This document shows positions 2 to 35,908 of a stretch of DNA of 64,000 bases, in pieces (the stretch's first letter is position 1; each line of letters begins with the position of its first letter). The stretch lies in assembly GCA_017451385.1 (NCBI GenBank), contig JAFSPS010000042.1, positions 124,001 to 188,000 of the forward strand, read 5' to 3'. The position numbers and the translations under genes are program-made. The notes under the pieces were generated by a model. That model made no database searches, was not told the origin of the DNA, and was given only the letters and a program-made list of their open reading frames with translations. This DNA is from Bacteroidales bacterium (GTDB lineage Bacteria > Bacteroidota > Bacteroidia > Bacteroidales > P3).

Positions 2-3000
2 ATTCAGGTAGAGGTTATAGGCGAAGAGCAGGGCGATGACGGGCTGACTTACGTGAGAGTGCGTGAGGTAGGCGGCAAGGAGGAGATGAGCCTGAGAGAG
101 GACGTGCTGAGCGAGCTGGCGTTGCAGGCCAACGAGCAGCAGGCTGCCAACGAGCAGGAGGAAGAGGGCAAGGGAGAGTACCGAGGTGTGTTTGCCGCGG
201 GCAGCAGACGGCGTATGATGGATGCCTTCGGCACGTTCCACGATATAGAGATAGTGAGCGACAACAATGACGGCAGTGTGATGGTGCGTGAGGAAGGCGT
301 AGAGTACCCATTGGCGAAAGCCAAGATACTTGACGGCATAGAGCGTGCCGGACGTTATGACGCTACACATAGGACGAGCCGTTATAATCAGGGCGACGAA
401 CTATGGCTTGACGACGGAGAGGGCGAGCATCGTGTGCAGGTGTTAAGTGTGCAGGCCGACGGCACTGTCAGTGTTTACGACCCAGAGACGGGCGAGATTG
501 TGGATATTGACGAAAAGAGTCTTGACGAGGCGGTAGAGGCGACGAGAGCGAAGTACAAGGTATCGCTTGATGCTGACAGCAGTTATGATGGGCTGAACGA
601 CGAGGGCGAGAGTGTTAAGATGACCATACAAGGAGAGAGTGTTAATGAAGGTGGAGAGACGATGTATGATGTGGTGCTTACCGATGGCGACGGGAAGGAA
701 AGTCTGGTAACTCTCAGCGAAGCCGACATACAGCATTATGTAGATAACGAGCGTCATGCGCGGATGGGAGCCGACAAGGCGGCAAAGGCTACGGCTGACG
801 CTATGCCGCTGACGGAGGAGGGGAAGCCTGACTACGAGGCGGCGGATGTGGCGCGGACGGTGCGTTATGTGTATGAGGAGAGCGGGCTTGACGAGGAGGT
901 GGCGGACCAGTTTGTGGAGAACAAGGGCAAGGAGGCGCAGGGCGCGCTGGAGAAGGTGATGAGGAAAGAACCTAAGATAGGCACTGACATAGACGAGTAC
1001 AAGGCGGCACACGAGCGGTGGGCGGCAGAGGTTGAGGCGGCGCGGAAGAGCAAGGAGTACTGGGATGCCGTAAAGGCCGAGCGAGAGAGGGTGAAGACGG
1101 AGAAGGTGCGTGTGGCTGACGATAACGCATATAAAGCCGCCGTGGCTCAAGGACGTACAGAGGCTTTCGAGGAATATCTGAACAGCTACCCCGACGGCAT
1201 CCACGCCGAGGAGGCGAAGCAGATGATAGCGTTTGCCAAGCGCAAGGGACACAAGCAGATTATGGCAGCAAAGAAGAAGTTGCAAGAGGCTGGCGACGTG
1301 ATGGAGAAAGCGCAGGCCATCAGTGACTTCATATACAATGTCTATCATGGTGCTGAGGCCACGGAGGAGGAGAATGCGATGTTTGACGAGGCGCGGCGAG
1401 AGCTTGCCTCACAAGGCTACGAGATAGTGGATGTGTTAGGCCAGCCGTATCATGAAGGCATGAAGGCGCAGGCGCAATTCGTTACTGATACGAGTCTGCC
1501 TGTAGGCACGGCGGTTATCACGGGAGTGCGCAAGCCGCAGGTGAACAAGGACGGCAGGATGGTGCAGGCGGCAGAGGTCACTGTGACGCAGGCGGCGTTT
1601 GGCGACCAAGGAGAAGTGGACGAGGCTATCAGGAAGGCGAGGGCAGGCGACAAGGATGCGCAGGCGCTGCTTGACGAGTGTGGCATAGAGTGGGTAGATA
1701 AGGATGTGCCGGACTGGAAGGCGGATAAGGCATCCGATGCGCGAGCAAGGGGCTACCGCATGGCTGACGGCGTGCGCTATGACCGACAGCAGCCCACGGA
1801 GGGCGTGTATGGTGATGAGGTGGATATAGACTTCACAACGCAAGAGAAGCCAGTGAGAGGGCGCTACAAGGTAGTAGAAGCATCGAGTGTGCAGCCGTCA
1901 CACACGTCAGGACATAGAAATGTGTATCACTTCATCAGCGAGGCACAACCTAAGGAACGTACCGATAAGACCTCAGAGGCAGAGAGTACGAGGATAGCGT
2001 CGGACATGAAGCCGGACCGCATCACAGGAGGCACTAACGCCTACGGCGGAGCACCAGTAGTGAACGCACGAGGCGAGGTGATACAAGGCAACAACCGAGC
2101 CATAGCGTTGCGCAAGATGTGGGGAGAAAGACACGAGGAATCGCAAGCATCATACAGGCAGTACCTAATAGAGCATGCTGCGGAGTTTGGGCTGGACGCT
2201 GATGCAGTAGCACAGATGGAGAATCCTGTGCTGGTGAGAGAGTTGGATGTAGAGGATGAGGAGGCAATACGTCTTGGTCAGTTTGCTGCTACGGACTTGG
2301 AGACGGGAGGCATAGTACGCATAGAGCCACGCTCGACAAATGCCAAGATGACTGCGGAGCAGGTGGTAAGGAGCTACGGCATACTGTTCAACACGGATAA
2401 TAGCGAAGCGACAATAGGAGAGTTGATAGAAGCAAATGGAGACCGCTATCTTGCATATCTGCATCAGGTGGGGGCGATAAGCAGCACGCAGATGCAGAGT
2501 GCCTATAAGCGTGACGGCAAGACGTTGACGGAGGATGCACGCAGCGACATAAGGAAGATGATGTTATTCAACATCCTCAATGGCGGAGCCGACGGTATAG
2601 AGGCTGCCTTTGAGAGTCTGCCCGATAGGGTGAAGAAGGCGCTGCCACAATCAATGGCAGGCGACATGAGGCTTGAAGAGGGCGACCGACTGCTGCCCGA
2701 TGTGCAGAAGGCGATTATGGCGTGCGTGGAGGTGACGAACAGCGACCTCATGCGAAAAGCCATAGAGGGCATGGGGAAGAAGCAGATGAAGCTGGAAGAC
2801 TATCAGTCAGTGATAGGCTCGCTGGCAGGACAGATGAGTCTGACGGACAGACCGCTTGGGGAGCGTTATACGGAGTTGCAGCTGGAGATAGCGGCGCACT
2901 TGCTGGCGGACACGCAGACGAGGCTAAAGGAAATATTTGCGGAATATCAGCGTTTAATATTAGGAGAGTCGGGCAACATGTTCCAAGAGACGGAGAAGTT

Positions 3001-6000
3001 GTCGCGCGAGGAGGCTATAGAGCGAGTTTTTGAAGTTAAACCTAATAAAGCATCAAGCAATGACACAAGAAGAGAAACTAAGAATCTTCCAACAGGCGGT
3101 GAAGAACGTGGAGGAGAGGGAGCGTCAGGCGGAAGAGCAGGCACAGCAGACGGCCGAGCAGGCAGAGAGCGAGCCGCAAAGTCCTCGCGAGGACGAGTAG
3201 GCGGAGAGTCTGCCGACGATAGCGGCAGCGAGAAGGGCAAGCAAGAATCACCCTCGGCAGAGAAGGCCGAGGGTAATGGTGTGTTGTCTGCTGAGAACGG
3301 CGGAAAGGATAATGCAAGCAATAGCAAGGCGGCGGCAAGGGTAGCCAAGGCGAAGGAGATTGCCGAGCGGCTTGTCAGGGCTGACAATGCCGACAATGGG
3401 GACTATTTAGAAGAACACGAAGCAAAGCAGGAGCTGCTTGCCCATCTGCGCACGATGACTGATGAGGAGCGTGCGCAGGCGTTTCCGTGGTATAAGAGAG
3501 GGGAGAAGGGTAATGCGCCCGATGGCGGAGGGGCGGTCGAGGTGGCACTCGCCGAGGACGACGTCCGCAGGGAGGTGAGTGCGAACTTGCAGACGGTCAT
3601 TGACGAGGGCGAGCGTCCTCAGCGGACAGGCAAGACTTTGGACGGCAAGCAGTCGGGCGTGGCCTCGTTCGCTATGAGTGTCAAAGAGGCCAAGAAAGAT
3701 AGTCGCCTTGTTCTGACGGGCATCCATCACGATGCTGAGGAGCGCGTGGCTGTGGCCACGGATGGTCACCTCATGGTCTGGAGCAGTGACGAGTACGACG
3801 AGAAGCACGCAGGACAGACGATAGCGACGGCTACGGCGGAGAATAACGGCGAGCGTGTGCAGAAAGGGGAGCCTATAGAGGGTAGATACCCGAAATGGAA
3901 GAATGTTGTCGAGAGTAATGCTAACAAGCATGGCAAGCACGCACAGGAGATAGACCTGCAGGGCCTTGCCGACTTTCTGGCTGACTTGCAGGAGCGGATA
4001 AAGGCCGATTATGCGGCTCTCAAGGAGCTTTATCCGAACTACAAGGTGAAGCTTTCGGAATACGAGCAGAACACGCGCGTGGTGATGCGGATGCATGACG
4101 GCACTGTTGTCGTCGTGCCATACAGCGGGTTGAAGGCTATGACGGAGGCGGCAGTGCGGATGGAGGCACGACAGATGGTGTGGAACGGCGAGGAGAGTGC
4201 CGTGATGCTGCGTGGCGAGCGAGGAGGGGCTATGCTTATGCCTATAGCCACAGACAATTTCAGAGATAAGGAGGCGGTGCGGAAGCTCATGACGCTGGAT
4301 GGTTACGGCGAGGAGAGTGCTGGCCGCCTGTGGGGCTATGCCGTCAAGGGCATGGAAGATGAGAAGAACGAGGAAAAGGGCGAAGAGAAGGGCGAGGAGA
4401 AGAAGAAGGACTTGTCCGGATTTGTAGAGGGCATGACGAAGATGCAGCGAGGGAGGACGGAGAAGGTTCTTGGCGAGCGATTCAATTATAGTGAGGGCGG
4501 GGTCATGACGCGTGCCGAGCGTATGGAGCGCAAGGTTTCGGAGGGTGCCGTTTTTAGCAAACACTTGGATGACAAGGGTAAGACGGTCTATTCGTTTGAG
4601 AATAGTGATGGCTCATATACGATAATCACCAAGACGGAGTATGACTACGCCGCGTATCTTGGCGGCAAGGCTGCGAGCGAGGAGGCGTTTGAGGGCGAAC
4701 GCAGGCGTTTTAGGCGTGGCGAGTTGTCGGCGAAGTTCGATTATCCCACGATGGAGAGGATAGAGAAAATGATTGAATGGAAGGAACGAACGTTGCGCGT
4801 TATCAATCCTAATGGCACGGAGGGGCAGAGAGTCACCAAGGAGTTGGAAGAGCTGAAGGAGTTAAAGTCGTTGAGAGAGGAGGATGCAAAAACCTCTAAT
4901 GAGGTGACGGAGCAGGGTGAAAGCGGAAGTGGAAATGGCGAGCGTCAACAGCGAGTGGATAGTGCTGGCAAGGCGAGCAGGGTTAGCAAGGTGGAGAAGG
5001 CGTTGCGTGACGGCGTGGTGAGGCTGCTGCGGAAGATGGGCATAGAGGTGAGCGAAGACTGGAAAGAGGGGGAAAGAGTACTGGCGGCGGCGGAGGATAT
5101 GGTACGCGAACAGGTTGTCGAGGAAACCAAAAATAAGGTGTTGAGTGAATTTGAGAGAGCAAAGCAGGGGAATGCAGCCGGTGAAAGAATACCTATAGGC
5201 AAACTAACGAAACAAGGACGCGAGTACCTGCAAGACATATCAGGCATAAGCATAAAGCCTGATGTTGATTTTATCCTTAACAGTTCTGACCTAAGACATA
5301 TATACAATGACCATTACGGCGAGAATGAGAAAGACAAGGGGAATAATATTCCTCTGACAGACGAGGATATTAGGTCGATGGTTGATACAATTACTTCGCC
5401 AGACAAGGTTGTGTTTGGTACTGACAAGGAAGACGGACGCAAACTGTTTTTCTTCATCAAGCAAGCCGCTGACGGGACATATAATCTTACGGAAGTTTAT
5501 GCTGACAGAAGGGGCAATCTTACGGCTAAAAGCTTCTTCAAATCAAAAAAGAGTATCGCCCAACGAGCAGATGAACTATTGAATAGTCCCAAGCTCAAAA
5601 CGTCCGAAACGGGTGGGGAATCCTCTTTTTCGAGTGCAAAGATACCACAAATATTTGAACCGGCAAAAAATAATTCCGTTCGCGAGATGCGTGTCTATCA
5701 TGGCACGGCGGCGGACTTTGACCGCTTTGACCACCGCCACATGGGCGAGGGCGAGGGGGCGCAGGCCTACGGCTGGGGGACGTATGTCACGCAGGTGGAA
5801 GGGATAGGGAAAGCCTATGCTCATACTGCTGTCAGTGTCAATGAACCATACAATGATGTCAAATATGTAGGCACGACGCTTAGTGAGTCCGATGCCAAAG
5901 TGTTGGCTGGTTTGTTTAACGGTGGTAGAAGAGACTGGCAAGGAGTGCTTGATTTCTTGCAAGCGTCGGCAGAGAAAGGTTCGGAACGAAGCCGACGCTA

Positions 6001-9000
6001 TATAGAAAAGTTTAAGTCCACACGTCCCGAAGACTGGGTTGCACCGACAAGCGGACGCAGATACCTCTATACGGTTGAGATTCCCGACGACAACGGGAGC
6101 AACTACTTGGAGTGGAACAAACCAATAAAACAAAAGCAGTTGACTAAAATAGCATCTGCATTGGCGAAAGAAAAGGGGAAAGAATATGGCGACTACCTAA
6201 AAGAGAAGAAAGGAAGCTATGGAGAGAATATATATTATGAACTCTACACATCTCTTGGCTCAAAACAGGCAGCGTCCGAGTTGCTGCATTCCGCTGGCTT
6301 TACCGGCATCAAAGTTCCTACGGGATTTATAAGTGGAGAGAGCGTTGAGGGTAAATATAACTACGTCATCTTCAACGAGAGTGATGCTCGGATAACGGGC
6401 AAGACGAAGTTTATGCGCACGCCTGACGGGGGCGAGGCCTACGGCTTCACGAAGGATGGCGTGATACATCTTGACCCGCGTATAGCGACGAGCGAGACGG
6501 CGGTGCATGAGTATGCGCACTTGTGGTCGGAGGCTTTGCGGCGGGCTAATCCTGCGGCGTGGGAGCGTCTGAAGGAGGAGATGCTTGGGCAGGAGGATGT
6601 GCTGGAGTATGTGAAGCGGCTGTACCCGGAGTTGGAGGGTGACGAGCTGATGGAGGAGGTGTTTGCGCACTATGCCGGTCGCAGGGGTGCCGAGCGTCTG
6701 CGTGCGGAGATGGCAGAGGAGATGGAGAAGGCAGAGGGAGTGTTTGCGAAGGGGATGGTGGCAAGGGTGTTTGCGAAGATACGTAATGCCGTGCGTGCGT
6801 TCTGGAACCAGACGCGCCAGCTGTTTGCGGGCCGTGTGGAGGGTCTGGACAAGGTGAGTGCGGAGGATTTTGCTGATATGACTTTGGCTGATTTGCTGGG
6901 CGGATATAATCCACGCACAGGGCGGACTGCCGAGGAGCGGAGGATAGAGGAGGAGGCCAAAATGGACGGCACGTGGATGCAGGCGCCTAACGGCAAGAAG
7001 AGTAATCTGACGGAGCGTCAGTGGGTGCAGGTGAGGACGGCGGCGTTCAAGCGTTGGTTCGGTGACTGGGAGAAGGCGCAGCTTATACGACAGGCGCGCA
7101 ATGCATGGAATGACCCAGAAAGCAAAAACAAGTTTACATTCTCAATTTCCGACAGGCTTGCGGAGGCATTCAGCAACTTGCTGGGACACGAGATAAAGAC
7201 AGTAACTATCACCGATGATGCAATACGGCACATAAAGAAGGGACACAGCAGTGGCGAGGAAAAACGGGGGCAGGTAAACCTTACGCCCGAAGATATTGCG
7301 ATTATACCTTACATCTTAAACAACTATGACGCAATAGAGCGGTCGCCCGAGTATGACGACCGGATGGGCAATCGTGCGATAACGGTAAGAAAGCGCATCA
7401 ACGGTGTGTCGGTTGTTGCGACTATAGAGCAAGGGAAGAACAAGGAATTTGTTGTTACCCAATGGCAATATATGAGGTCGGATGCCTTAGATGCTGCTGT
7501 TGCAACCCCGGGGCCCAACGTCCGAAACGACTCCGACTCTGACGCTGCAAAGATACGAAAAGAAATTGAAACGCTGAAAAAATCGGTAGAAAAATGCTCT
7601 GCGGTGGTAGATGAGAATGGGGAGCCGAGGGTGGTGTATCATCAGACGGGCAATGAGTTTACCGTGTTTGATACGAGGCATAGCGGAGCAGGTACAACAG
7701 ACATGCAGATGCCATTCGGCATATTCCTGAAGCCAACGGAGCGAAACATAGGCATACAAGGGAGCAGACAGATGGCCTTGTTTGCACGGATAACTAATCC
7801 GCTACGTCTTGCGAATAGGGATGTGCTAAAACAATACCTGTCGGATAACGTGCCAGGCTATCGGGAAGCACAAGAAGCCTATGAAAGGATAGACCGAGAG
7901 TACCAGATGCAATTGGATGCGATAGAGGCAGAGGAAGATAGGGAATATAAAGAAGTGTGGCAGAAGCGTCGTGATGGCGAGATGAGCGAAGAGGAGTATC
8001 AGGAACGGATAAAAAAAATATATGCGAAGTCGGAACAGATATTAAACGAATGGACGACGAAGAGTAATGAGCAGGGTGCCGTCATGAAGCAGATGGTTGA
8101 TGAGTATATGCGAGGCGGCGAATATGACGGGATAGTACTTGAACAGGATGAGGGCAGTTTCGGGCGTTCGACGATGACGCTTTTGGCCTACGAGCCTACG
8201 CAGGTGAAGAGTGCCGAGGAGAACGTTGGTACGTATGACGGGGCGAACGCAGACGTGCGGTATCAGATAAGCGACATGGACGAGGAGTATATGGATGCGG
8301 TCGAACGTGGTGATATGGAAACGGCGCAACGCTTGGTGTATGAGGCCGCAAGGCTTGCGGGGTATATGCCCGACTCGGACTACAGAGCGACCCACACCGC
8401 ACCCACAGGGCGAGACGGTTTCTCTGTTTCAATAAATGATGCCACAAAAGGGATATATCCAGAAGACCTTTATAGTCCTGACGGCTACCGCTATTACGGT
8501 TCCGGCAGGGCTATGGATATGCAGAGTTGGAGTATCTTCAAGAGGGTGAAAGGAAATCCTGACGCACAGGTTGCCATTTACCGTGCCGTTCCAAAATCAG
8601 TAAAGGAGACAAAGCTGCGCAACGGCGACTGGGTTACAATCAACGAGGATTATGCAAGACAGCATGGTGAGGCACACATTAAAGGGCCATATAAAATCAT
8701 AAAAGACACCGTTCCCGCAAAGTATGTTTTCACGAACGGGGATTCCTTGCATGAGCAAGGCTATGACGATGGAGGCAACTATGCCTATAAGGACACCAAG
8801 AATAACCGTAAATTACTTGATGCTGTTACTTATGACGACGAGGGGAATGTAATACCACTAAGCAAACGCTTTAATAAGCGCAACGGCGACGTGCGGTATC
8901 ATCGCAGGAGTGGTGGAGAGACGGCGGGTCAGCTGAGCCTGTTTGGCGATGAGGAGGTGGAGAATGCGAGGGGTAAGGCTGAGCGGGGGGCAGCGGCCCA

Positions 9001-12000
9001 GTCGCGGTTGCCGCGGTTGCGCAGGTTGCGAGAGGGAGAGAAATGCTATGTGGAGCGACGGCTGAGTGAGGATAAATCGTTCACGCTCGTAGGGCGCAGC
9101 GAGAAGGTGGAGACGGTGGATGATGTGGCATACATTTTCCGTTGTCTTGAGGACAAGGCTGTGGAGCATACTTTCCTTGTGTTTGTGAAGGATGGAGTGC
9201 CTACGATAGTGCATGCAGGGATGGGCAGTGCCGTGCAATCAGCAATGGACCTCTCAACGCTGGCGCCGATGATAGAGCAGATGAAGCCAGATGCAATATA
9301 CAGCGTACATAACCATCCGAGCGGCAAGCTCACTGCATCGGCGAATGACCAGCAATTATATTCGGCAATACGCTCGACAGTGCCGGCAGGGGTAAGGGTG
9401 GAGCATGTGATAATAGATACCTACCGACACGACTACAACGTGATAAGGCATACGGGGTATGCTAATCAGGATTTTGCTGTGGAGACGCGTCGTCAGGGCG
9501 AAGAGAGCGGAAGCGGCGAGAAGATGAAGTTGTATGCGTTTGACAGCAAGAAGTATAATGAAGATTATAAAGAGCGGCATGTATCAGATGCGGCGGATGT
9601 GGCAGCGTATGTGTCCTCGTTGCGATTGGGTGATGCCAAGAAGGTGGGCGTGCTGGTGTTGGACAATGCGAATAATATCTGTGGTGTTGTTTGTCCGAAC
9701 GTGAACAGCATGGACGAGATAGAGGAAGAGGGAGTGATTAGGGGATTGCTGTCCGATGCGATGATGATGGGAGGTCGTCAGGTTATGGTGTTTGGAACGG
9801 GAGTAGATATGGCTAACACGAGCAGAGAGCAGGTGAGCCGGTTGAAGCAGAGGATAAGAAGTTTGAGCGGTATGTCTATGTCGCTACTTGATATTGTGGA
9901 GACAGGCAAGTGGGGAGGATATTACGTTAGTGCGCAGTTAGAAGGGAAGCTGAGGGAGAGCGGAGCAGAGTATGAGGGAGAGCGGAGAGAGGAGTCGGAG
10001 GTGGGAGAAAATTCTTCATCGGAGGAGGACGGCTTGCTGTTCAGGGATGAGGAGGGAGAGATGTTTTATTCTCCCGCGCGTCGAGCTGTGGAGGGTGTGA
10101 AGCAGGGCAAGGCAACGGGCGAGCAGTGGCTTCGTATGATAGAGAAGGCTGGCGGGCTGAAGGCAGGCGAGGACAAGTGGACGGGGCTGAGCGAGTGGCT
10201 GAAGGAGAACAAGGACAAGAGCCTTACGAAGGAAGATGTGCTGGAGTATCTGGCGGAGAACGAGGTGCAGGTTGAGGAGGTGGAGTATGAAGATGCTGCG
10301 GACAATGCTGATTTCGAGTCGTTGAAGAAGGAATACGACAAGATGTTACGCGACGAAGGCTATGATTATGCCTGGGAGCAGTTGCGTGAACGTTTCGGTG
10401 ACGATGCAGAGATTGCGTTCACGGACATAGGCGGAGAGCTGGGGATTGATAACGGGGAGGCTGCCAGCGTATTGCTTCGAATGAACCGTCCTATCCAAGA
10501 GACGCGACTGGAATATACTACCGAAGGTTTGGAAAACAAACGCGAGATAGCACTGACGGTGCCGACGATTGAGCCATGGAACGAGAATGACGAGATACAC
10601 TTCGGTGATGCTGACGGAGGCCGTGCCGTGGCATGGGTGCGTTTCGGCGAGACGCGTGATGCTGACGGGCGGCGAGTGCTGGTGATAGACGAGGTGCAGA
10701 GCAAGCGTCATCAGGAGGGGAGAGAGAAGGGGTATGCGAATGTAACGGATTGGCAGTATCGGGAGCGTTTGTTAAAAGCAAAGGGTGATGCTTGGGACGA
10801 ACTTCAGGGGTACAATAAAGAACTCGAAAAGAAAGGTGTTAGGTATCCTTCTGAAAGAAGCGAGGAAGAGCAGCGAAAACACGAAAAACTGGTTAAGGCA
10901 TATAAAGAGGCAGAGGAGAAACTAATAGTATGGGAACAGCAGTTTGGTTATCATGGTAGTGTCCCTGACGCCCCCTTTGAGAAGAACTGGCATGAGTTGG
11001 CGATGAAGCGAATGCTACGCTATGCTGCCGAAAACGGTTATGACAAAGTGGCATGGACTAAGGGCGAGCAGCAGGCAGCACGGTACAATATCGGAAACGC
11101 AGTTAGGAATATAGATGCAGGTATTGACCAGAATGGTAATCGTGTAATGCTTATACATCTGAACCAAGGTGGCACTGTGGATATTACCCATGACAACGAG
11201 GGTAACATCACCCACATGAACAACATTGGCAAGGATGTAGGACTTGGAGAAGCTAAAAACATTCGCGATATTGTGGGCAAGGATATTGCTTTACAAGCCC
11301 TGACTATTACTGACAAAGGTACAGAGAACATGAAGAATTGGAAAGGTAACGGCCTCCGTATCGGTGGCGAGGGCATGAAGGGATTTTACGACCAGATGCT
11401 GCCGCGGTTCATGGACAAGTACGGCAAGCGGTGGGGCGTGAGGACTAAGGATGTCGTGTTGCCGGATGTGGAGGCGTCAGGGCGAGTGATGCACTCGGTG
11501 GATGTGACGGAGGAGATGAAGGAGAGCGTGATGGCGGGGCAGCCGCTGTTCAGAGAGGTGACGGACGAGGATGAGATAGAGCGTTTGGAGGGCGAGCCGA
11601 CGATACGGGTGTACCGTGCGATGCAGGTGATAGACGGACAGTTGTACCCGCCGATGAGTGCTAAGGTGAACGGGCGCCTTCGAGAGCCGTCGCACTTGGG
11701 CAGATGGGAGCGTGCCGACGAGAACCCAGAGCTGGCGACTGAGGATGGCAAGTTCAAGTTGGATAAGGGCAATAGGAAGAGTGTGCCGGCGGCATATAAT
11801 CCGTATCTTCATACGAGTACGACGATGCTTAACGACCAGTTCAGCGAGGCGCAGAACCGACCGAACTTGGTGGTGGTGGAGATGGAGGTGCCGGTGAGCG
11901 AGCTGACGAGCGGCTACAAGGCGGAGCGGGCAAAGGATGGCGTGGGTGTCCACGACTGGAAGGCCGGCGTGGTGCAGGGGAAGCTGACGGGGATGCGCGA

Positions 12001-15000
12001 GGTGATACTGAGCCGCTGGGCAAAGCCTGTGCGCGTGGTGCCAGCAAGCGAGGTGGCGGAGAGCATCATGGAGCAGATAGACGGCGAGCTGGAGAGCCTG
12101 CCGAGCAACGTGCTGACACCCGATGTGCGTGCGGAGTTGGAGAAGAGGGGTGTGCGGATAGTGGAGACGGACACGAAAGGGCGCATCGTGGAGGGTGCGG
12201 ACAAGGGCAAGACATGGAGCGAGACGCAGAAGGGTGTGAAGCCGGCAGACATGGTGCGCAGCACGGTGAATCGTTTGGCTGGCAAGCTGGGTACTAAGGT
12301 AAGGATAATAGAGAGCAGGGACGAGCTGCCGCAGGGATGGACGGAGAGGCAGAAGCGTACGCGTCGCGGCTGGTACGACAGCAGGACTGGCGAGGTGGTG
12401 GTGATACTGCCTAACCAGACGTCTGCGGCGGATGCGGAGCGTACGGTGCTTCACGAGGTGGTGGGGCATAAGGGGCTGCGCCGTCTCTTCGGCGAGGATT
12501 TCGACACGATGCTCGACAACGTGTATGAGAATGCCACGGATGAGATACGGAGCCGCATAGATGCCGACGTGAGGAGCGGCAAGCTCAACCGGCGCGAGGC
12601 TACGGAGGAGTACATGGCGCGTCTGGCGGAGGATGAGAAGGCGATGAAGGAGGCGCAGCGCAGCGGCTTGTGGGACAAGATAAAGGGGTGGCTGATGGAT
12701 ATGCTGCGCAAGGCAGGCGTGCGGCTGCCGCATAGGCTGACGGATAACGACTTGCGCTATATCCTGTGGGCGAGCCGTAAGAATATGGAGGAGCGCGACG
12801 CGATGAGCAAGGCGGAGGATATAGTGATGCGTCAGCGTCTGGGCGTAGAGGGCGAGAGCCGCGAGGAGGACAGGGTGTATGCTGGGAGGAGCGGAGAGCG
12901 AGAGGACATGGAGGATGAGAGACATCTGTGGGAGGATAATTTAGATTTAGAAATGGAGCAAGATGCGTTTAACGAGTTTTTTGAAGGAGCCAAGGCGCGC
13001 AACGAGAGACCCGAGAGGGAGGAAGATTATAGCGAAGAGGAGTATCAGGAAGAGTTGTCGTACTGGGAGAGGGAGTGTGCAGAAGAGGCGTTTGAGAGGC
13101 AGAGAATGTCGTATGACGAACGTCAGATGGACGATGGTGTGAGCGAAAAAGATATTATAGATTTTGCAGATGCTTACGAGCTGGTAAAGACGGACGACGG
13201 ATATACGGTAGAGCCCAAGAAGGACAATCAGGGCAGACTGACGGAAGATGCCAAAAGGGCATTAGGCATCACGAGACAGCCTACGCAGTACGAGCGTCAG
13301 ACAAAGACGATAGAGGAGTTGCAGTCGGCAATGGGATTGAGTAAGGTACGCACGAGGACACAGTATGTGAGAGGAGAGACCAAGGACGGAGACAAGTGGG
13401 TGATAAGGATAGGAGACCATGCGGCTAACGCCAATAATTTTAGGATGTACGACCCCGATGCGGATTATGTGCTAAGTATCGTGGTGGATAACGAGTTTGA
13501 CCCACATCGGCAGCGACAGGAGAGGATGCAAGACGAGATGAGAGATAGACATCAGATAGTAATAACATCGGATTTGTGGGAGAGCGACAAGGAAGGACTA
13601 TTGTCGGAGATAGAGAAGTTTAAGGAGACTGGCGTGTTTGAGTACGACGATGGGCTGCTGTTTAGAAACGATGATGTGGAGGATGTGAACCGCCTTTTCA
13701 ACGAGGAACTGGAGAAGCAGATAGACGGGACATTGCCTGCTGGACATGTGTACAACATGGGGTTTCCGAGCGCAATATTGCGGAGTACGGGATTTCCTGA
13801 TGTGCCTATTGAACTTTCAGCAAGTCATCTTGCCAAGAAAGCACAAGCCTCGCACCATCCATTTGATATTAGCGAAATCAAAGACCTTGTTCAATCACTT
13901 CAAAATCCTATGGCAGTATTTGTCTATGGAGAAAAAGGGAAGGCTCAAAATGTTATTATAGAGATACAGCACGATGGCAAGAGCTTTGTCGTTGGCATCC
14001 ATTTCAATCAAAAAAGAGGAAATGCCGAAGTGTCAAGCATACGAGGGTTATATCCTAAAGATAATGCCGAGTGGCTGAATTGGATTAGTCAGGGGAAAGC
14101 CTTGTATATAGACAAAGAAAAAATCCAAACCCTTATAGACCAACAGCGAAAGAATCTCGCTGACGTGGAGTATCTGGATTTGGAAGATGTTGCAAAGATA
14201 GTAAATAATTTTGAAAACCCGGAGATAAAAGATGATGGTCTGCTGTTTCGGGAGGAGGATGGCTCTGAATCCTCTGATGGCTCTGAATCCTCTGATGGCT
14301 CTGATGGCTCGGAGGTGGCTGATGAGGCTATGGAGACTACGCCGATGACGCTGTATGAGAAGATGACGGATGCTCTTATACGTTTGGCGAAGGAGCGTGG
14401 GGACAATGTGCGTCTGTGGAAGGGCGTGCATCGTGCGTTGCGTGAGAAGCTGAACGAGATAGGTGTAGAAATGGTAGGCAAGAGGACTTTTGACAGAGGG
14501 ACGCTTGCAGACCTTGTGAGTGTGGCAAAGATGATGGTGAGGGGCGACATAGTGGAAGAAAGCGAGGTGAGGCCGCTGATAGAGAGCATAAGCAACGGGA
14601 CGGATGCCGACGGCGCAACGGTGCAGCTGAAGACGATACTGGACAAGGCGCAGAAGAGGGACGAGGAGAACACGGTGCTATTTGGCGGCGACGACTACAC
14701 GCAGCGCGACCGAGTGATAGCAAGAGAGGCATACGAGCGCATGGTAAGCAGCGGCAGGTTCCAGTTCCGCGAGGCGATGCAGGACAGCATGCTTGGCTTG
14801 CGCAGGCTGTACGAGGCGGTGCTTGGCAAGGGGACGAGGATAGAGGATGTGGAGGACGGAATGAACGCCTACACGGCGGAGAACCGTATGAGCAGCATGA
14901 ACGCCGCGGAGCAGCACGAGTATTTCAGGGTATATATGAACGCCATACTGGAGGCTATACACGAGATAGCAGGCAGCAACAAGGAGGAGCGTCAAGCACT

Positions 15001-17737
15001 GACGGACTACATGATGGCGAAGCACGGCTTGGAGCGCAACGAGAGGTTTGCGGCGCGCGATGCGAGAGCAGCAGAGAAAGAGGGGGCAGACTATGACGAG
15101 ACCTACGGACAGAACCGCAAGCGGGACTATGCAGGACTGACGGCACTGACGGGCGAGAAAGATGTAGAGAAGGCGGAAGAGAAGGCGCGGCAGATGGTAG
15201 ATGAGTTTGAGGCAAAGCACGACACGCGGAAGTTGTGGGACAGCACGAATGCTGCCACGAAAGCCACGTTGAAGAAGCTGTATGACAGCGGCGTGCTGAG
15301 TGCGGAGAGTTACGGAGAGATAAGCCAGATGTTCGAGTACTATATACCGTTGCAGGGTTGGGACGAGACGACGAGCGACGAGGTGTATGGCTACCTGACG
15401 AGCAAGGACGGCCCGCTGCGCGGCAGCCCTATAAAGCATGCAAAGGGGCGCAGCAGCAAGGCTGATGACCCGATAGCGACGATAGCGATGATGGCTGACG
15501 CGGCGATACAGCAGGGCAACAGGAACGAGATGAAGCAGAGGTTTCTGAACTTCGTGCTGAGCCATCCGAGCGATGCTGTGAGCGTGAGCGGACTATGGCT
15601 GGAGAAGAGACTGGGCAGCGACGAGTGGGTGCCTGCATTCCCCGAGATAGCGGACAGCGACACGCCCGAAGAGGTGGAGAACAAGGTGGCGGCATTCGAG
15701 GCAAGGATGGAGGCGGCAAAGGCGGTGAATCCCAACATGGTGAAGCATGGCGGCGAGGCGGCAAATATACCGTACAAGGTGAAACCGGGGATGATAAGCG
15801 AGCATCAGGTACTGGTGAAGCGAGGGGGCATGACATACGTGCTGACGATAAACGGCAACCCGAGGGCAGCACAGGCTTTGAACGGGCTGACTAACCCCGA
15901 CACGAAGGTGGGCGGCATATTTGACGCTGTGATAAAGAGCGGCGAATGGGTAAACCGTCAGCTGAGCGCGGCATATACGACGCGTAACCCCGACTTCATG
16001 CTGAGCAACTTCCTGCGCGATGCTATATACAGTAATAGTATGGTGTGGGTAAAGGAGAAAGGCAACTATGCCTTGAAGTTTCACAAGAACTTCGGCAAGT
16101 TTAACCCGGGTACTATGGCCGTGCTGTTTACGAAATGGGAGCGCGGCACGCTGGACGAGAACAACTACATGGAGAGTATGTTCAAGGATTTTATGATGAA
16201 CGGCGGCGAGACGGGCTATACCAACGTGAAGGATATAGAGAAGCACAAGAAGGAGATAGCGAAGGTGCTGAAACGTCAGAGTGACAAGACGAGGGCTGCA
16301 CTGAGCGCGCTGGGGATAGGGCTTGACGTGCTGAACAGGAGCGTGGAGAACTGTGCAAGGTTTGCGGCGTTTGTGACATCGAGGGAGTTAGGGCGCAGCA
16401 TGGGCAGGAGCATCTATGATGCCAAGGAGGTGAGCGTGAACTTCAACAAGAAGGGTGCTGGCGACCGTTTTATGCGGGCCGAGGGGCAGACGGTGCTGGG
16501 CAAGATAGGGGCTATAGGCAGCGGCGCGGGGCGCGGGCTGTTTGTGTTCTGGAATGCTGGCATGCAGGGCATGACGAATTTCGGGCGCGCCTTCAAGCAT
16601 CATCCCGTAAAGGCCACGGCAGGGGCGGCGGCGATGTTCAGCCTCGGTGTGGTAGTGCCGCTGATAGCAAAGGCTATGACGGCAGGGGGCGACGACGATG
16701 ACAAGAACGCCTACTATAACCTGCCCGAATACATACGGCGCAGCAACATCTGCATCTATGCCGGCGACAAGTGGGTGACGATACCGCTGCCGATAGAGTA
16801 CAGGGCTATCTACGGTTTGGGCGAGCTGGCGACGGGCGTGCTGACGGGCGAGGAGCATTATAGCGATGGCGAGATGGCGAAACAGTTTATAAGCCAGATG
16901 AGCCAGGTGCTGCCGTTGGACTTCATGGAGGGCGGCGGAGGCTGGCACGCCTTCGTGCCGAGCGCGGTGAAGCCTTTTGTGGAGGCGCAGGGCAACCGCC
17001 GTTGGACGGGGCTGCCGCTGTACAGGGACAATCCATACGACGAGGACAAGGAACTTCCAGAATGGACGAAGGCGTACAGCAGCACTGACAAGCATTTTGT
17101 GGAGGCTGCCAAAGGCATTAGCGATATGACTGGCGGCGATGACTACGTAGAGGGGTGGATAGACATCAACCCCGCAAAGGTGGAGTATATGCTCAACGGT
17201 TATCTGGGCGGCTATTTCAGCACGCCGGCGAAGCTGGTGAAGATGACGGAGACAGCGTTTGGAGAGAGGGATTTCGACTGGCGGAATATGCTGTTTGCCA
17301 ACCGAGTGATAAAGACGGGCGACGAGACCACGAAGATGCGTAAGATACAGAACGATTATTTCAGATACAAGGACGAGTATGAGGAGACGAAGCGACGCTA
17401 TAAGGCATACGAAAAAGAGGCGAACGCTGGGGTTGAGAGGTATGCGGAGAAACTAAACGACCTTAACTATTCGGAGAGGTATGCGCGGTATCTGATATTT
17501 GATGATTACGGCAAGGCGGTGGAGCGGCTGTACAAGATGAAGGAATACGAGAAAGACGAAGAGATGAAAGCCTTGATAGCGGAGGAGCATGACGAGATGA
17601 TGCGGCTGCTTGTGGAGACGATACGCGAGTATGACAAGACGGAACGAGTGCCTGAGCAGAAGGAGATGAATGAGCATATAAGGGAGGTCAATGAGAAGAT
17701 AAATGAAGCCTATAATAAGAAAAGAAAGAGTAGTTGA
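2..17737 (+). CDS. Giant phage polyvalent (DNA-ejection/effector) protein, 5' end outside window
   Basis: The frame is already open at base 2, so the protein begins outside the window; the GTG at 53 is only the first internal start, and the visible part exceeds 5,900 residues. Modules by nucleotide position: SH3-like and coiled-coil stretches (to about 1,600); DdrB/ParB-like domain with GNNR (2,087-2,098); Gly/Ser-rich linker (3,110-3,290); clamp-like segment (3,660-4,300); RNase-like HIYNDHYG (5,288-5,320); ART-like VYHGT...GWGTYVT (from 5,686); HEYAH zinc site (6,505-6,519); second RNase-like IRHIKKGH (7,222-7,245); ART-like VVYHQTG (7,631); IYRAVP module (8,575); JAB/RadC HNHPSG (9,308-9,325); large polyvalent-associated domain with DEVQSKRHQ (10,600-11,400); HEVVGH zinc site (12,452-12,469); MuF-C-like (13,650-14,230); LPD38-like C-terminus (14,340-17,300) with a hydrophobic helix (16,610-16,680). 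By analogy with polyvalent proteins it is probably packaged and ejected with the DNA. Module names are motif-level inferences; the polyvalent nature itself is secure. Confidence 0.88.
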   Translation: MQVEVIGEEQGDDGLTYVRVREVGGKEEMSLREDVLSELALQANEQQAANEQEEEGKGEYRGVFAAGSRRRMMDAFGTFHDIEIVSDNNDGSVMVREEGVEYPLAKAKILDGIERAGRYDATHRTSRYNQGDELWLDDGEGEHRVQVLSVQADGTVSVYDPETGEIVDIDEKSLDEAVEATRAKYKVSLDADSSYDGLNDEGESVKMTIQGESVNEGGETMYDVVLTDGDGKESLVTLSEADIQHYVDNERHARMGADKAAKATADAMPLTEEGKPDYEAADVARTVRYVYEESGLDEEVADQFVENKGKEAQGALEKVMRKEPKIGTDIDEYKAAHERWAAEVEAARKSKEYWDAVKAERERVKTEKVRVADDNAYKAAVAQGRTEAFEEYLNSYPDGIHAEEAKQMIAFAKRKGHKQIMAAKKKLQEAGDVMEKAQAISDFIYNVYHGAEATEEENAMFDEARRELASQGYEIVDVLGQPYHEGMKAQAQFVTDTSLPVGTAVITGVRKPQVNKDGRMVQAAEVTVTQAAFGDQGEVDEAIRKARAGDKDAQALLDECGIEWVDKDVPDWKADKASDARARGYRMADGVRYDRQQPTEGVYGDEVDIDFTTQEKPVRGRYKVVEASSVQPSHTSGHRNVYHFISEAQPKERTDKTSEAESTRIASDMKPDRITGGTNAYGGAPVVNARGEVIQGNNRAIALRKMWGERHEESQASYRQYLIEHAAEFGLDADAVAQMENPVLVRELDVEDEEAIRLGQFAATDLETGGIVRIEPRSTNAKMTAEQVVRSYGILFNTDNSEATIGELIEANGDRYLAYLHQVGAISSTQMQSAYKRDGKTLTEDARSDIRKMMLFNILNGGADGIEAAFESLPDRVKKALPQSMAGDMRLEEGDRLLPDVQKAIMACVEVTNSDLMRKAIEGMGKKQMKLEDYQSVIGSLAGQMSLTDRPLGERYTELQLEIAAHLLADTQTRLKEIFAEYQRLILGESGNMFQETEKLSREEAIERVFEVKPNKASSNDTRRETKNLPTGGEERGGEGASGGRAGTADGRAGRERAAKSSRGRVGGESADDSGSEKGKQESPSAEKAEGNGVLSAENGGKDNASNSKAAARVAKAKEIAERLVRADNADNGDYLEEHEAKQELLAHLRTMTDEERAQAFPWYKRGEKGNAPDGGGAVEVALAEDDVRREVSANLQTVIDEGERPQRTGKTLDGKQSGVASFAMSVKEAKKDSRLVLTGIHHDAEERVAVATDGHLMVWSSDEYDEKHAGQTIATATAENNGERVQKGEPIEGRYPKWKNVVESNANKHGKHAQEIDLQGLADFLADLQERIKADYAALKELYPNYKVKLSEYEQNTRVVMRMHDGTVVVVPYSGLKAMTEAAVRMEARQMVWNGEESAVMLRGERGGAMLMPIATDNFRDKEAVRKLMTLDGYGEESAGRLWGYAVKGMEDEKNEEKGEEKGEEKKKDLSGFVEGMTKMQRGRTEKVLGERFNYSEGGVMTRAERMERKVSEGAVFSKHLDDKGKTVYSFENSDGSYTIITKTEYDYAAYLGGKAASEEAFEGERRRFRRGELSAKFDYPTMERIEKMIEWKERTLRVINPNGTEGQRVTKELEELKELKSLREEDAKTSNEVTEQGESGSGNGERQQRVDSAGKASRVSKVEKALRDGVVRLLRKMGIEVSEDWKEGERVLAAAEDMVREQVVEETKNKVLSEFERAKQGNAAGERIPIGKLTKQGREYLQDISGISIKPDVDFILNSSDLRHIYNDHYGENEKDKGNNIPLTDEDIRSMVDTITSPDKVVFGTDKEDGRKLFFFIKQAADGTYNLTEVYADRRGNLTAKSFFKSKKSIAQRADELLNSPKLKTSETGGESSFSSAKIPQIFEPAKNNSVREMRVYHGTAADFDRFDHRHMGEGEGAQAYGWGTYVTQVEGIGKAYAHTAVSVNEPYNDVKYVGTTLSESDAKVLAGLFNGGRRDWQGVLDFLQASAEKGSERSRRYIEKFKSTRPEDWVAPTSGRRYLYTVEIPDDNGSNYLEWNKPIKQKQLTKIASALAKEKGKEYGDYLKEKKGSYGENIYYELYTSLGSKQAASELLHSAGFTGIKVPTGFISGESVEGKYNYVIFNESDARITGKTKFMRTPDGGEAYGFTKDGVIHLDPRIATSETAVHEYAHLWSEALRRANPAAWERLKEEMLGQEDVLEYVKRLYPELEGDELMEEVFAHYAGRRGAERLRAEMAEEMEKAEGVFAKGMVARVFAKIRNAVRAFWNQTRQLFAGRVEGLDKVSAEDFADMTLADLLGGYNPRTGRTAEERRIEEEAKMDGTWMQAPNGKKSNLTERQWVQVRTAAFKRWFGDWEKAQLIRQARNAWNDPESKNKFTFSISDRLAEAFSNLLGHEIKTVTITDDAIRHIKKGHSSGEEKRGQVNLTPEDIAIIPYILNNYDAIERSPEYDDRMGNRAITVRKRINGVSVVATIEQGKNKEFVVTQWQYMRSDALDAAVATPGPNVRNDSDSDAAKIRKEIETLKKSVEKCSAVVDENGEPRVVYHQTGNEFTVFDTRHSGAGTTDMQMPFGIFLKPTERNIGIQGSRQMALFARITNPLRLANRDVLKQYLSDNVPGYREAQEAYERIDREYQMQLDAIEAEEDREYKEVWQKRRDGEMSEEEYQERIKKIYAKSEQILNEWTTKSNEQGAVMKQMVDEYMRGGEYDGIVLEQDEGSFGRSTMTLLAYEPTQVKSAEENVGTYDGANADVRYQISDMDEEYMDAVERGDMETAQRLVYEAARLAGYMPDSDYRATHTAPTGRDGFSVSINDATKGIYPEDLYSPDGYRYYGSGRAMDMQSWSIFKRVKGNPDAQVAIYRAVPKSVKETKLRNGDWVTINEDYARQHGEAHIKGPYKIIKDTVPAKYVFTNGDSLHEQGYDDGGNYAYKDTKNNRKLLDAVTYDDEGNVIPLSKRFNKRNGDVRYHRRSGGETAGQLSLFGDEEVENARGKAERGAAAQSRLPRLRRLREGEKCYVERRLSEDKSFTLVGRSEKVETVDDVAYIFRCLEDKAVEHTFLVFVKDGVPTIVHAGMGSAVQSAMDLSTLAPMIEQMKPDAIYSVHNHPSGKLTASANDQQLYSAIRSTVPAGVRVEHVIIDTYRHDYNVIRHTGYANQDFAVETRRQGEESGSGEKMKLYAFDSKKYNEDYKERHVSDAADVAAYVSSLRLGDAKKVGVLVLDNANNICGVVCPNVNSMDEIEEEGVIRGLLSDAMMMGGRQVMVFGTGVDMANTSREQVSRLKQRIRSLSGMSMSLLDIVETGKWGGYYVSAQLEGKLRESGAEYEGERREESEVGENSSSEEDGLLFRDEEGEMFYSPARRAVEGVKQGKATGEQWLRMIEKAGGLKAGEDKWTGLSEWLKENKDKSLTKEDVLEYLAENEVQVEEVEYEDAADNADFESLKKEYDKMLRDEGYDYAWEQLRERFGDDAEIAFTDIGGELGIDNGEAASVLLRMNRPIQETRLEYTTEGLENKREIALTVPTIEPWNENDEIHFGDADGGRAVAWVRFGETRDADGRRVLVIDEVQSKRHQEGREKGYANVTDWQYRERLLKAKGDAWDELQGYNKELEKKGVRYPSERSEEEQRKHEKLVKAYKEAEEKLIVWEQQFGYHGSVPDAPFEKNWHELAMKRMLRYAAENGYDKVAWTKGEQQAARYNIGNAVRNIDAGIDQNGNRVMLIHLNQGGTVDITHDNEGNITHMNNIGKDVGLGEAKNIRDIVGKDIALQALTITDKGTENMKNWKGNGLRIGGEGMKGFYDQMLPRFMDKYGKRWGVRTKDVVLPDVEASGRVMHSVDVTEEMKESVMAGQPLFREVTDEDEIERLEGEPTIRVYRAMQVIDGQLYPPMSAKVNGRLREPSHLGRWERADENPELATEDGKFKLDKGNRKSVPAAYNPYLHTSTTMLNDQFSEAQNRPNLVVVEMEVPVSELTSGYKAERAKDGVGVHDWKAGVVQGKLTGMREVILSRWAKPVRVVPASEVAESIMEQIDGELESLPSNVLTPDVRAELEKRGVRIVETDTKGRIVEGADKGKTWSETQKGVKPADMVRSTVNRLAGKLGTKVRIIESRDELPQGWTERQKRTRRGWYDSRTGEVVVILPNQTSAADAERTVLHEVVGHKGLRRLFGEDFDTMLDNVYENATDEIRSRIDADVRSGKLNRREATEEYMARLAEDEKAMKEAQRSGLWDKIKGWLMDMLRKAGVRLPHRLTDNDLRYILWASRKNMEERDAMSKAEDIVMRQRLGVEGESREEDRVYAGRSGEREDMEDERHLWEDNLDLEMEQDAFNEFFEGAKARNERPEREEDYSEEEYQEELSYWERECAEEAFERQRMSYDERQMDDGVSEKDIIDFADAYELVKTDDGYTVEPKKDNQGRLTEDAKRALGITRQPTQYERQTKTIEELQSAMGLSKVRTRTQYVRGETKDGDKWVIRIGDHAANANNFRMYDPDADYVLSIVVDNEFDPHRQRQERMQDEMRDRHQIVITSDLWESDKEGLLSEIEKFKETGVFEYDDGLLFRNDDVEDVNRLFNEELEKQIDGTLPAGHVYNMGFPSAILRSTGFPDVPIELSASHLAKKAQASHHPFDISEIKDLVQSLQNPMAVFVYGEKGKAQNVIIEIQHDGKSFVVGIHFNQKRGNAEVSSIRGLYPKDNAEWLNWISQGKALYIDKEKIQTLIDQQRKNLADVEYLDLEDVAKIVNNFENPEIKDDGLLFREEDGSESSDGSESSDGSDGSEVADEAMETTPMTLYEKMTDALIRLAKERGDNVRLWKGVHRALREKLNEIGVEMVGKRTFDRGTLADLVSVAKMMVRGDIVEESEVRPLIESISNGTDADGATVQLKTILDKAQKRDEENTVLFGGDDYTQRDRVIAREAYERMVSSGRFQFREAMQDSMLGLRRLYEAVLGKGTRIEDVEDGMNAYTAENRMSSMNAAEQHEYFRVYMNAILEAIHEIAGSNKEERQALTDYMMAKHGLERNERFAARDARAAEKEGADYDETYGQNRKRDYAGLTALTGEKDVEKAEEKARQMVDEFEAKHDTRKLWDSTNAATKATLKKLYDSGVLSAESYGEISQMFEYYIPLQGWDETTSDEVYGYLTSKDGPLRGSPIKHAKGRSSKADDPIATIAMMADAAIQQGNRNEMKQRFLNFVLSHPSDAVSVSGLWLEKRLGSDEWVPAFPEIADSDTPEEVENKVAAFEARMEAAKAVNPNMVKHGGEAANIPYKVKPGMISEHQVLVKRGGMTYVLTINGNPRAAQALNGLTNPDTKVGGIFDAVIKSGEWVNRQLSAAYTTRNPDFMLSNFLRDAIYSNSMVWVKEKGNYALKFHKNFGKFNPGTMAVLFTKWERGTLDENNYMESMFKDFMMNGGETGYTNVKDIEKHKKEIAKVLKRQSDKTRAALSALGIGLDVLNRSVENCARFAAFVTSRELGRSMGRSIYDAKEVSVNFNKKGAGDRFMRAEGQTVLGKIGAIGSGAGRGLFVFWNAGMQGMTNFGRAFKHHPVKATAGAAAMFSLGVVVPLIAKAMTAGGDDDDKNAYYNLPEYIRRSNICIYAGDKWVTIPLPIEYRAIYGLGELATGVLTGEEHYSDGEMAKQFISQMSQVLPLDFMEGGGGWHAFVPSAVKPFVEAQGNRRWTGLPLYRDNPYDEDKELPEWTKAYSSTDKHFVEAAKGISDMTGGDDYVEGWIDINPAKVEYMLNGYLGGYFSTPAKLVKMTETAFGERDFDWRNMLFANRVIKTGDETTKMRKIQNDYFRYKDEYEETKRRYKAYEKEANAGVERYAEKLNDLNYSERYARYLIFDDYGKAVERLYKMKEYEKDEEMKALIAEEHDEMMRLLVETIREYDKTERVPEQKEMNEHIREVNEKINEAYNKKRKSS

Positions 17738-27391: not shown

Positions 27392-27403
27392 CGAAGAAGA
27401 GAG

Positions 27404-35748: not shown

Positions 35749-35908
35749 TAAAAAGATTGTACGAGTGTCGGAAACACATAACCTCAAAAGTGCGACACGA
35801 AAACGACACGATTTTTTGAAAAAAAAAGAAACAAAAACATTTTTATATCGTTTTACAATTGTCGGAATAATCTCATAATAAACATATAATAAATGTATTT
35901 GAAACAAA
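35749..35908. other. Gene-free phage/host boundary segment with TGTCG/CGACA boxes
   Basis: 160 AT-rich bases. Four related boxes occur: GTGTCGG (35,765-35,771), GCGACACGA (35,792-35,800), ACGACACGA (35,803-35,811) and TTGTCGG (35,859-35,865); the middle two form direct repeats with an 11-base period. The first two form an inverted pair enclosing about 20 bases. Such clustered short repeats are typical of integrase arm sites or Mu/Tn7-type transposase ends. No tRNA or long duplicated core is seen on this side. Confidence 0.5.

Follow-up and report, generated by a model that had tools for sequence, protein, structure and literature searches.

What is encoded by a phage-type gene that runs for more than 17 kb without a stop codon, and does its product act as one chain or as many? 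Such a gene occupies the left end of the stretch of DNA analysed here, which we call the window: 64,000 nucleotides of a Bacteroidales bacterium contig, JAFSPS010000042.1 (C22:124001-188000), from a 2.57-Mb draft genome in 54 contigs. A preliminary description of the window had reported a single frame of over 17.7 kb and over 5,900 residues, open at the left edge, and this was borne out: positions 2-17737 of the forward strand form one stop-free frame of 5,911 residues that is open at that edge. When the same contig is read leftwards the gene is found to start with an ATG at C22:120474, which lies 3.5 kb beyond the window's left edge, and in full it comprises 21,264 bp encoding 7,087 residues, with no internal stop. 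The gene and its product are referred to below as the giant.

2..17737, forward strand: window part of the giant polyvalent-protein gene, residues 1177-7087 of 7,087

The giant is almost certainly a polyvalent protein of a prophage. According to the parts of Iyer et al. 2017 (PMC5512222) consulted here, polyvalent proteins are proposed to enter the host with the DNA, and their embedded metallopeptidases to release their parts. The giant resembles this class in domain repertoire, in late-gene setting and in its embedded metallopeptidase-like motifs, and it combines at least two unrelated conflict domains with the phage-type LPD38 and ddrB-ParB domains. Our overall reading, to which we give a probability of roughly 0.45, is that a conserved delivery chassis carries changeable cargo, and that the whole would be a virion-delivered polyprotein cut at the joints between its modules by its own zincin. 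The polyvalent kind of protein is known; new here are the size of the giant, its family, the division into chassis and cargo, and a candidate joint cutting site together with its link to an HExxxH motif.

That so long a frame is an assembly error, or an inert remnant inside a decayed prophage, is very improbable indeed. The source is a draft genome in many pieces, but the 21 kb open frame lies amid terminase and portal genes and flanking repeats, and homologous frames of 3.2-6.9 kaa (thousand amino acids) are found on independent contigs and in sequenced isolates; an artefact, which the preliminary description had named as grounds for rejecting the frame, is thus unlikely. Third-position GC (guanine plus cytosine) per 500-codon block spans 0.52-0.78 over residues 3001-7000, which fits a mosaic origin.

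The giant does not stand alone. Its C-terminal 1,011 residues, used as a query, found 32 loci in viral contigs, 18 in species genomes and 4 of 99 genomes, its own included, and matched 154 phage records, 118 of them from Vibrio phages (about 25% identity among the matches listed). Frames were assembled for 30 of the loci, which are numbered with an L, and for three isolates; L034 was dropped (a 1,018-residue frame), L011 is truncated on the 5' side, and L058 seems to be incomplete. With the giant this gave 33 sequences of more than 3,000 residues, 31 after removal of two near-duplicates. Lengths in these 31 run from 3,193 to 7,087 residues (median 5,635), and great length is a trait of the family; the giant is the longest and the next has 6,884 residues. 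It is also longer than eight other polyvalent proteins (at most 5,000 residues), a test set of 42 proteins described below (at most 5,598, some of them possibly cut by locus ends) and gp69 of phage JC1 (4,515), and within these compared sets its earlier placement at the extreme of the class holds.

Three family members come from sequenced Bacteroides phages and have the C-terminal chassis in common with the giant: BS-TP4 gp3 (5,391 aa, 51.5% identity), BKO1-TP3 gp55 (5,553 aa, 46.0%, annotated as 'DarB-like antirestriction') and BF1-TP2 gp68 (3,633 aa, 30.6%). The giant exceeds them by about 1,500-3,450 residues. Their genes lie near portal and other virion genes in genomes of 64-68 kb, like the giant's prophage, and an integrase gene is found upstream in BKO1-TP3 and BF1-TP2 and not in the displayed part of BS-TP4.

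Conservation along the giant is sharply uneven (the E values of this comparison come from a small custom database of family members). Residues 6101-7000 were found in 31-32 of 32 relatives at about 53% identity, and the sequence beyond residue 7000 in 18 of them; the block 5301-5400 was present in 30, and residues 801-1100 in 26-27 at about 25% identity. The ParB stretch (1701-2200) occurred in 14-18 relatives, blocks of 2301-5200 in 0-5 and residues 5701-5900 in 8. Profile scans of 22 relatives, covering 3,633-4,953 residues of 21 and 980 of one, with the BS-TP4 and L059 rows 99% identical, gave LPD38 in all 22, InPase in 17, MuF_C in 6, ART-PolyVal in 4 and RadC in 2. The helicase profiles Helicase_C, Helicase_C_4 and AAA_34 were each seen in 4-6 of 11 relatives per set, a methylase profile was seen in 2 of 22, and helicase, kinase, LPD, PBECR and MutS-I profiles occurred in varying numbers of the relatives scanned. 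Since the profiles vary in this way, cargo appears to be the main difference between members, and modular exchange of cargo around a conserved chassis, consisting of an N-terminal region, an HExxxH region and a C-terminus of about 1,000 residues with LPD38, is highly likely on these sequence comparisons. The suggestion that the giant delivers a complete counter-defence kit is not supported: profiles for InPase, methylases and helicases matched nothing in its window part, even at E values as high as 1, and the BS-TP4 homologue, unlike it, has both InPase and helicase profiles.

The modules of the window part are as follows.

1844..2245, forward strand: ddrB-like ParB domain, residues 1791-1924 (Pfam PF18763, E 2.1e-28)
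3677..4117, forward strand: clamp-like module, weak, residues 2402-2548 (PHROG 3007, E 7e-9; PHROG 6615, E 8e-4)
5234..5554, forward strand: PBECR3 predicted RNase, copy 1, residues 2921-3027 (Pfam PF18812, E 1.8e-11)
5669..6421, forward strand: ADP-ribosyltransferase (ART)-type module 1, residues 3066-3316 (Pfam PF18760, E 3.7e-6, below cut-off; BLAST matches to other polyvalent proteins)
6455..6913, forward strand: cargo zincin-like region with HEYAH, residues 3328-3480 (motif at residue 3345)
6959..8275, forward strand: ART-type module 2, split, residues 3496-3555 and 3706-3934 (Pfam PF18760, E 6.3e-18)
7148..7471, forward strand: PBECR3 copy 2, nested in ART module 2, residues 3559-3666 (Pfam E 4e-14, slice)
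8276..8902, forward strand: ART-like module 3, residues 3935-4143 (PHROG 2579, E 7e-34)
9032..9916, forward strand: RadC-type JAB module, residues 4187-4481 (Pfam RadC, E 1.7e-7)
10064..11551, forward strand: unnamed polyvalent module, residues 4531-5026 (48-54% identity to L107 and L108)
11549..12223, forward strand: module of unknown kind, residues 5026-5250 (BLAST, L085 62% and L053 44%; predicted model mostly low-confidence)
12224..12853, forward strand: chassis zincin-like region with HEVVGH (HExxxH) at 12452-12469, residue 5327 (30 of 32 relatives over residues 5301-5400)
13835..14128, forward strand: MuF_C domain, residues 5788-5885 (Pfam PF18819, E 2.5e-21)
14729..17734, forward strand: C-terminal chassis, residues 6086-7087, with LPD38 at 16706-17293 (Pfam E 4.2e-39)

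Seven Pfam matches of six kinds lie above cut-off in the window part: ddrB-ParB, PBECR3 (two stretches), ART-PolyVal copy 2, RadC, MuF_C and LPD38. For the first 1,175 residues of the protein the scan used NCBIfam profiles only. The preliminary description had named a DdrB/ParB-like module, two RNase-like modules, a JAB and a MuF-C-like module and an LPD38-like end, and would have yielded to profile searches that found no such domains; all of these gave matches above the Pfam cut-offs, and the JAB assignment is further backed by a predicted model that matches the fold of 2qlc (E 8.8e-4, TM score 0.77 on the target). Of its three or more ART-like modules, copy 2 stands (64-66 bits against a cut-off of 31.2), copy 1 scores below cut-off (25-28 bits), and the third has no ART profile match, its support being PHROG 2579 and an L014 stretch to which module 3 and ART 2 both align. 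Its two HExxH motifs became one, HEYAH; HEVVGH is HExxxH instead, which the consulted text of Iyer et al. 2017 (PMC5512222) describes as a variant. The HEYAH region, which aligns with L014 (53%, residues 3277-3480) and L108 (33%), gave no profile or fold match to a zincin. The clamp-like module likewise stays weak: Pfam DNA_pol3_beta_2 reached only E 0.11, the matching PHROG 3007 and PHROG 6615 are annotated as RusA-like and 'DNA polymerase', and neither PDB sequence matches nor viral relatives were found in the searches run. PHROG 2579 is annotated as 'ParB C-terminal domain', yet the giant's matching module looks ART-like, and the annotation may be wrong.

Two of the effectors appear to be physically interleaved. 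The halves of ART module 2 are near-contiguous in BF1-TP2, in an Acinetobacter plasmid protein and in phages Y7/Y11; in the giant some 150-170 residues separate them, and by sequence comparison PBECR3 copy 2 is inserted into the ART module, one predicted effector nested within another. RadC is listed only in polyvalent proteins of conjugative elements in the sections of Iyer et al. 2017 (PMC5512222) that we consulted; the giant, unlike that list, has RadC (9146-9415) in a phage-type polyvalent protein, as do two relatives in one scanned set of 11, RadC being unlisted for the other 11. The unnamed module at residues 4531-5026 has 27% identity to a Dolichospermum phage protein and structural matches in uncultured phage proteins. 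A second predicted model (residues 4150-5345) had a predicted local distance difference test score (pLDDT) of 63.3, and RadC was its sole usable PDB match; acetyltransferase fold matches in it were weak (E about 0.6) and were not counted. The model of the C-terminal chassis is of moderate quality (pLDDT 66.8) and has no PDB fold match (best E 0.62).

How might such a protein reach its target? The C-terminus of the giant matches DarB-like proteins of the Burkholderia phages BcepIL02 (E 7e-22) and DC1 (E 5e-21). The DarB-like gp69 of the Bcep22-type podovirus JC1 is also very large (4,515 aa) and aligns with family members at their C-termini (E 5e-35) and, in others, over an additional stretch of about 1,600 residues (E 3.5e-167). 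The homology to the giant's chassis is distant, with 22-24% identity at the C-terminus; the best matches are other members, and the giant is absent among the 14 matches listed. As given in the portion of PMC9144972 consulted, gp69 was detected in JC1 virions by mass spectrometry. Packaging and injection of the giant are suggested by this finding and by homology: carriage in the virion is likely, and delivery together with the DNA plausible, both by analogy.

The antirestriction system of phage P1 offers a second comparison. The ParB region of the giant aligns by tblastn with P1 DdrB (25.5% identity, E 1e-11) over a stretch wider than the domain, and DdrB aligns with that region only; P1 is absent among the phage matches listed for the giant's C-terminus. 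P1 DdrB and DarB are head-packaged antirestriction proteins, several smaller proteins in contrast to the giant's single chain. According to the consulted part of PMC9024508, the N-terminal 30 residues of P1 DarB direct it into the head and suffice for packaging. Many long relatives of the giant open with one of two kinds of tandem repeat of about 30 residues (read by eye), and by analogy with DarB these N-terminal tags are possible packaging signals. Other ATG-started frames of at least 90 residues with the KLYD-type N-terminal tag were not found in the 13 sequences scanned. Tandem repeats of about 31 residues are seen at the giant's own N-terminus (L002:10495-10671, left of the window).

Between the cargo modules of the giant, and at corresponding places in other polyvalent proteins, a short motif recurs, with the form [VILMP][RL][FY] followed by R, S or Q; the six cargo copies in the giant fit [VILP][RL][FY][RQHS].

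8255..8266, forward strand: junction motif 1, VRYQ, residue 3928
8891..8902, forward strand: junction motif 2, VRYH, residue 4140
10034..10045, forward strand: junction motif 3, LLFR, residue 4521 (model confidence is low here)
11543..11554, forward strand: junction motif 4, PLFR, residue 5024
13655..13666, forward strand: junction motif 5, LLFR, residue 5728
14240..14251, forward strand: junction motif 6, LLFR, residue 5923

The motif coincides with the borders of homology. In the giant, 38 of 203 ends of high-scoring segment pairs (HSPs) lie within 10 residues of a motif copy, against 6.6 expected, and in a first set of 43 other proteins 47 of 58 copies are no more than 10 residues away from a border of homology, against 17.2. 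A later, second test set was drawn from ART-bearing proteins: 63 loci gave 52 frames with 1,000 residues or more, from which six family-like and five duplicate frames (one in both lists) were removed, leaving 42. Here 31 of 53 copies were at borders, a count reached by none of 5,000 rotations (null 11.0), and the border ratio exceeded those of all 274 random patterns counted. The narrower form D[IVL]R[FY][RS] occurred 17 times in the test set (0.7 expected), once in 240 control frames (0.9 expected; these were the longest non-overlapping frames and not curated genes) and 5 times in the eight other polyvalent proteins (0.15 expected), in which a looser pattern (6 against 2.26) stayed inside the shuffle range. 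The ART tail itself holds a sequence of the D[IVL]R[FY][RS] type, so that a set selected for ART favours the motif, and the border tripeptides of that set are led by the ART start motifs WFG and EWF, with DIR and RFS ranking lower. A recurrent site at module borders is present; it is weaker outside joints that follow ART modules, and missing from some relatives. Simple counts add little, as the loose first form of the motif hardly exceeds its frequency in whole-protein shuffles (48 against 34.1), a form with polar flanks, chosen post hoc, was counted 32 times against 9.3, and exact tetrapeptide and tripeptide enrichment across the family yielded no sharp signature. The 'PLxRFG domain' of RefSeq was considered as the joint motif and rejected; it is a different motif and is not located at the DIRYS joints in the proteins read.

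The residue that ends the motif tends to be the same within a protein. Among 64 within-protein pairs of border copies, 49 share the residue after F/Y (22.7 expected), and 28 of 43 do so once L109, which supplies 21 of the pairs, is left out (13.8 expected); in the second set 12 of 14 pairs agree (7.6 expected, p 0.02). R is found at 17 of 23 joints in the giant's family and at 2 of 39 in other polyvalent proteins, which use S or Q. L109 shares the chassis (49% identity), yet each of its seven joints has S, and neither HExxH nor HExxxH occurs in its stretch of 3,800 residues; the contig ends upstream.

The R form is accompanied by the HExxxH motif, which is present in 29 of the 31 long family members. 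Among 43 proteins with border copies, HE...H.G occurs in all 14 of the R type and in 9 of 29 others (p 1.1e-5); outside the family the counts are 4 of 4 and 7 of 26 (p 0.012). At the last joint, [FY]R[DETPS] was read in 24 of the 30 long members with a readable junction (by eye; 16 of the rows are partial, and for two of these the automated call is stricter). L014 and L057, which lack HExxxH, also lack this form; HExxxH without this form is seen in L017, L085, BKO1-TP3 and the giant.

These observations suggest the following course of events. The tandem tag of about 31 residues and the N- and C-terminal chassis regions would probably place the giant in the virion head, and it would enter the next host together with the DNA. 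Its cargo of predicted RNases, ADP-ribosyltransferases, a RadC/JAB module, a zincin-like region and a ParB-type domain would act, soon after infection begins, on nucleic acids and proteins of the host. In this scheme the conserved HExxxH region is taken to be a zincin protease and would probably cut the chain at the [VILMP][RL][FY][R] joints into separate tools. That the embedded putative zincin cuts at the joints is, taken by itself, a tentative proposal to which we give less than even odds, slightly lower than we did at first because one of the coherence tests rests largely on L109. The more general idea, that giant polyvalent proteins are punctuated polyproteins with a lineage-specific four-residue signal whose R form has co-evolved with a putative HExxxH zincin in the same chain, is equally tentative.

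A number of results weigh against our reading. That the giant is made, packaged, injected and cut is a prediction, drawn in part from homologues. Phage records contained no match to its first 1,175 residues, and the N-terminal chassis link is weak, at about 25% identity. The chassis HExxxH region has no match to a protease profile or fold, and the modelled slice ends just past the motif. The giant's own joints are mixed (Q, H, R, R, R, R), its last joint reads VLFGGDD, and its HSP-end rotation test was modest (p 0.011). The first set without L109 gave 16 of 29 agreeing pairs against 13.1 (p 0.17, not significant), and from this within-set weakness it follows that much of the coherence effect lies between lineages. 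The HE...H.G test was post hoc, made after L109, L107 and L110 had been seen; it counts a motif and is confounded by lineage. S- or Q-type joints occur in 20 proteins without HExxxHxG in the stretch read, a count that takes in every non-R type and one H-free protein, L014. Pattern M, the full form, shows no excess in the test set (53 against 44.7) or in control frames (42 against 55.8), so that the claim is carried by position and, less firmly, by coherence. JC1 gp69 shows no enrichment (one copy, 1.6 expected). Copies that do not follow ART-type modules were at borders in 10 of 29 cases in the test set (5.0 expected, p 0.016), a weaker effect. By a crude regular expression 37 of the 75 border copies of both sets do not follow ART; about half of the border joints thus do, and part of the joint signal may be a conserved ART tail.

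This last point leads to the most serious alternative, whose odds fall only somewhat short of even: the joint motif would be a structural remnant, the final strand or the tail with which modules of ART type and other types end, in a flexible string that is never cut. The many joints with the 'IKSA...DIRFS' tail of ART modules and the weaker border result at non-ART joints are what it would lead one to expect, and the virion RNA polymerase of phage N4, in the consulted text of Iyer et al. 2017 (PMC5512222), is packaged unprocessed despite a metallopeptidase domain. However, copies of the motif also stand after the JAB module, after MuF_C and after two other stretches of the giant, and one shared module ends in PLFR in L107, L110 and the giant but in PLFS in L109, an all-FS protein, which a mere tail would not readily explain. 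It is unlikely that a separate phage or host protease does the processing in place of the embedded zincin-like region; such an enzyme would account for the S- and Q-type joints of proteins that lack HExxxHxG in the stretch read, yet no head protease was recognised by profile in the subset of prophage genes scanned, and R-type joints accompany HExxxHxG in every one of the 14 proteins. Rather improbable is a third possibility, that the joints are recombination linkers for module exchange with no role in the protein. The coincidence of joints with homology borders and the mosaic-like third-position GC would suit it, but the four LFR joints of the giant use different codons, and DNA matches between them are no more than short (by eye), which fits selection on the peptide better.

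Descriptions of a linker or processing site were not found in the consulted text of PMC5512222, nor was any described joint, cutting site or giant polyvalent protein found in the titles and abstracts of the open-licence papers listed by searches aimed at them or in the portion of PMC9503650 consulted. The joint motif and the link between its R form and HExxxH supply concrete candidate cutting sites in the deposited isolates BS-TP4, BKO1-TP3 and BF1-TP2. If our reading is true, the borders between modules could be read off the sequence of many phage proteins that lack annotation, and the chassis would lend itself naturally to the delivery of protein sets along with DNA.

The giant gene makes up about 33.5% of a podovirus-type prophage of about 63.5 kb. 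The prophage gene set is bracketed by 21-bp direct repeats, and its length compares with 64.3 kb for BS-TP4 and 65.0 kb for BKO1-TP3. A repressor-like gene and a tyrosine integrase gene lie upstream of the giant; downstream are genes for terminase, a probable SU10-like capsid protein and adaptor (neither reaching the Pfam cut-off), an M15-type peptidase/endolysin and a P22-type portal. Terminase, probable capsid and portal genes all lie within 18 kb downstream, a late-gene portal-terminase setting.

17888..19981, forward strand: terminase large subunit (PHROG 2, E 1.3e-17)
21292..22866, forward strand: probable major capsid protein, SU10-like, weak (Pfam SU10_MCP, E 5e-4, below cut-off; PHROG 26635, function unknown, E 4.1e-14)
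33346..35298, forward strand: P22-type portal protein (Pfam P22_portal, E 2.6e-44; PHROG 156, E 4e-92)
35791..35811, forward strand: right copy of the 21-bp direct repeat, candidate attachment site (left copy at C22:96251)

Within the prophage, two adjoining genes at 26804-27949 match the same PHROG 19255 (function unknown) and are perhaps a tandem duplication. About 100 bp right of the repeat, at 35909, there is a cleaved-adhesin/Por_Secre_tail (secretion-tail) gene, and farther to the right, at 40268-41335, a gene resembling a PD-(D/E)XK family transposase (Pfam PDDEXK_2, E 4e-43).

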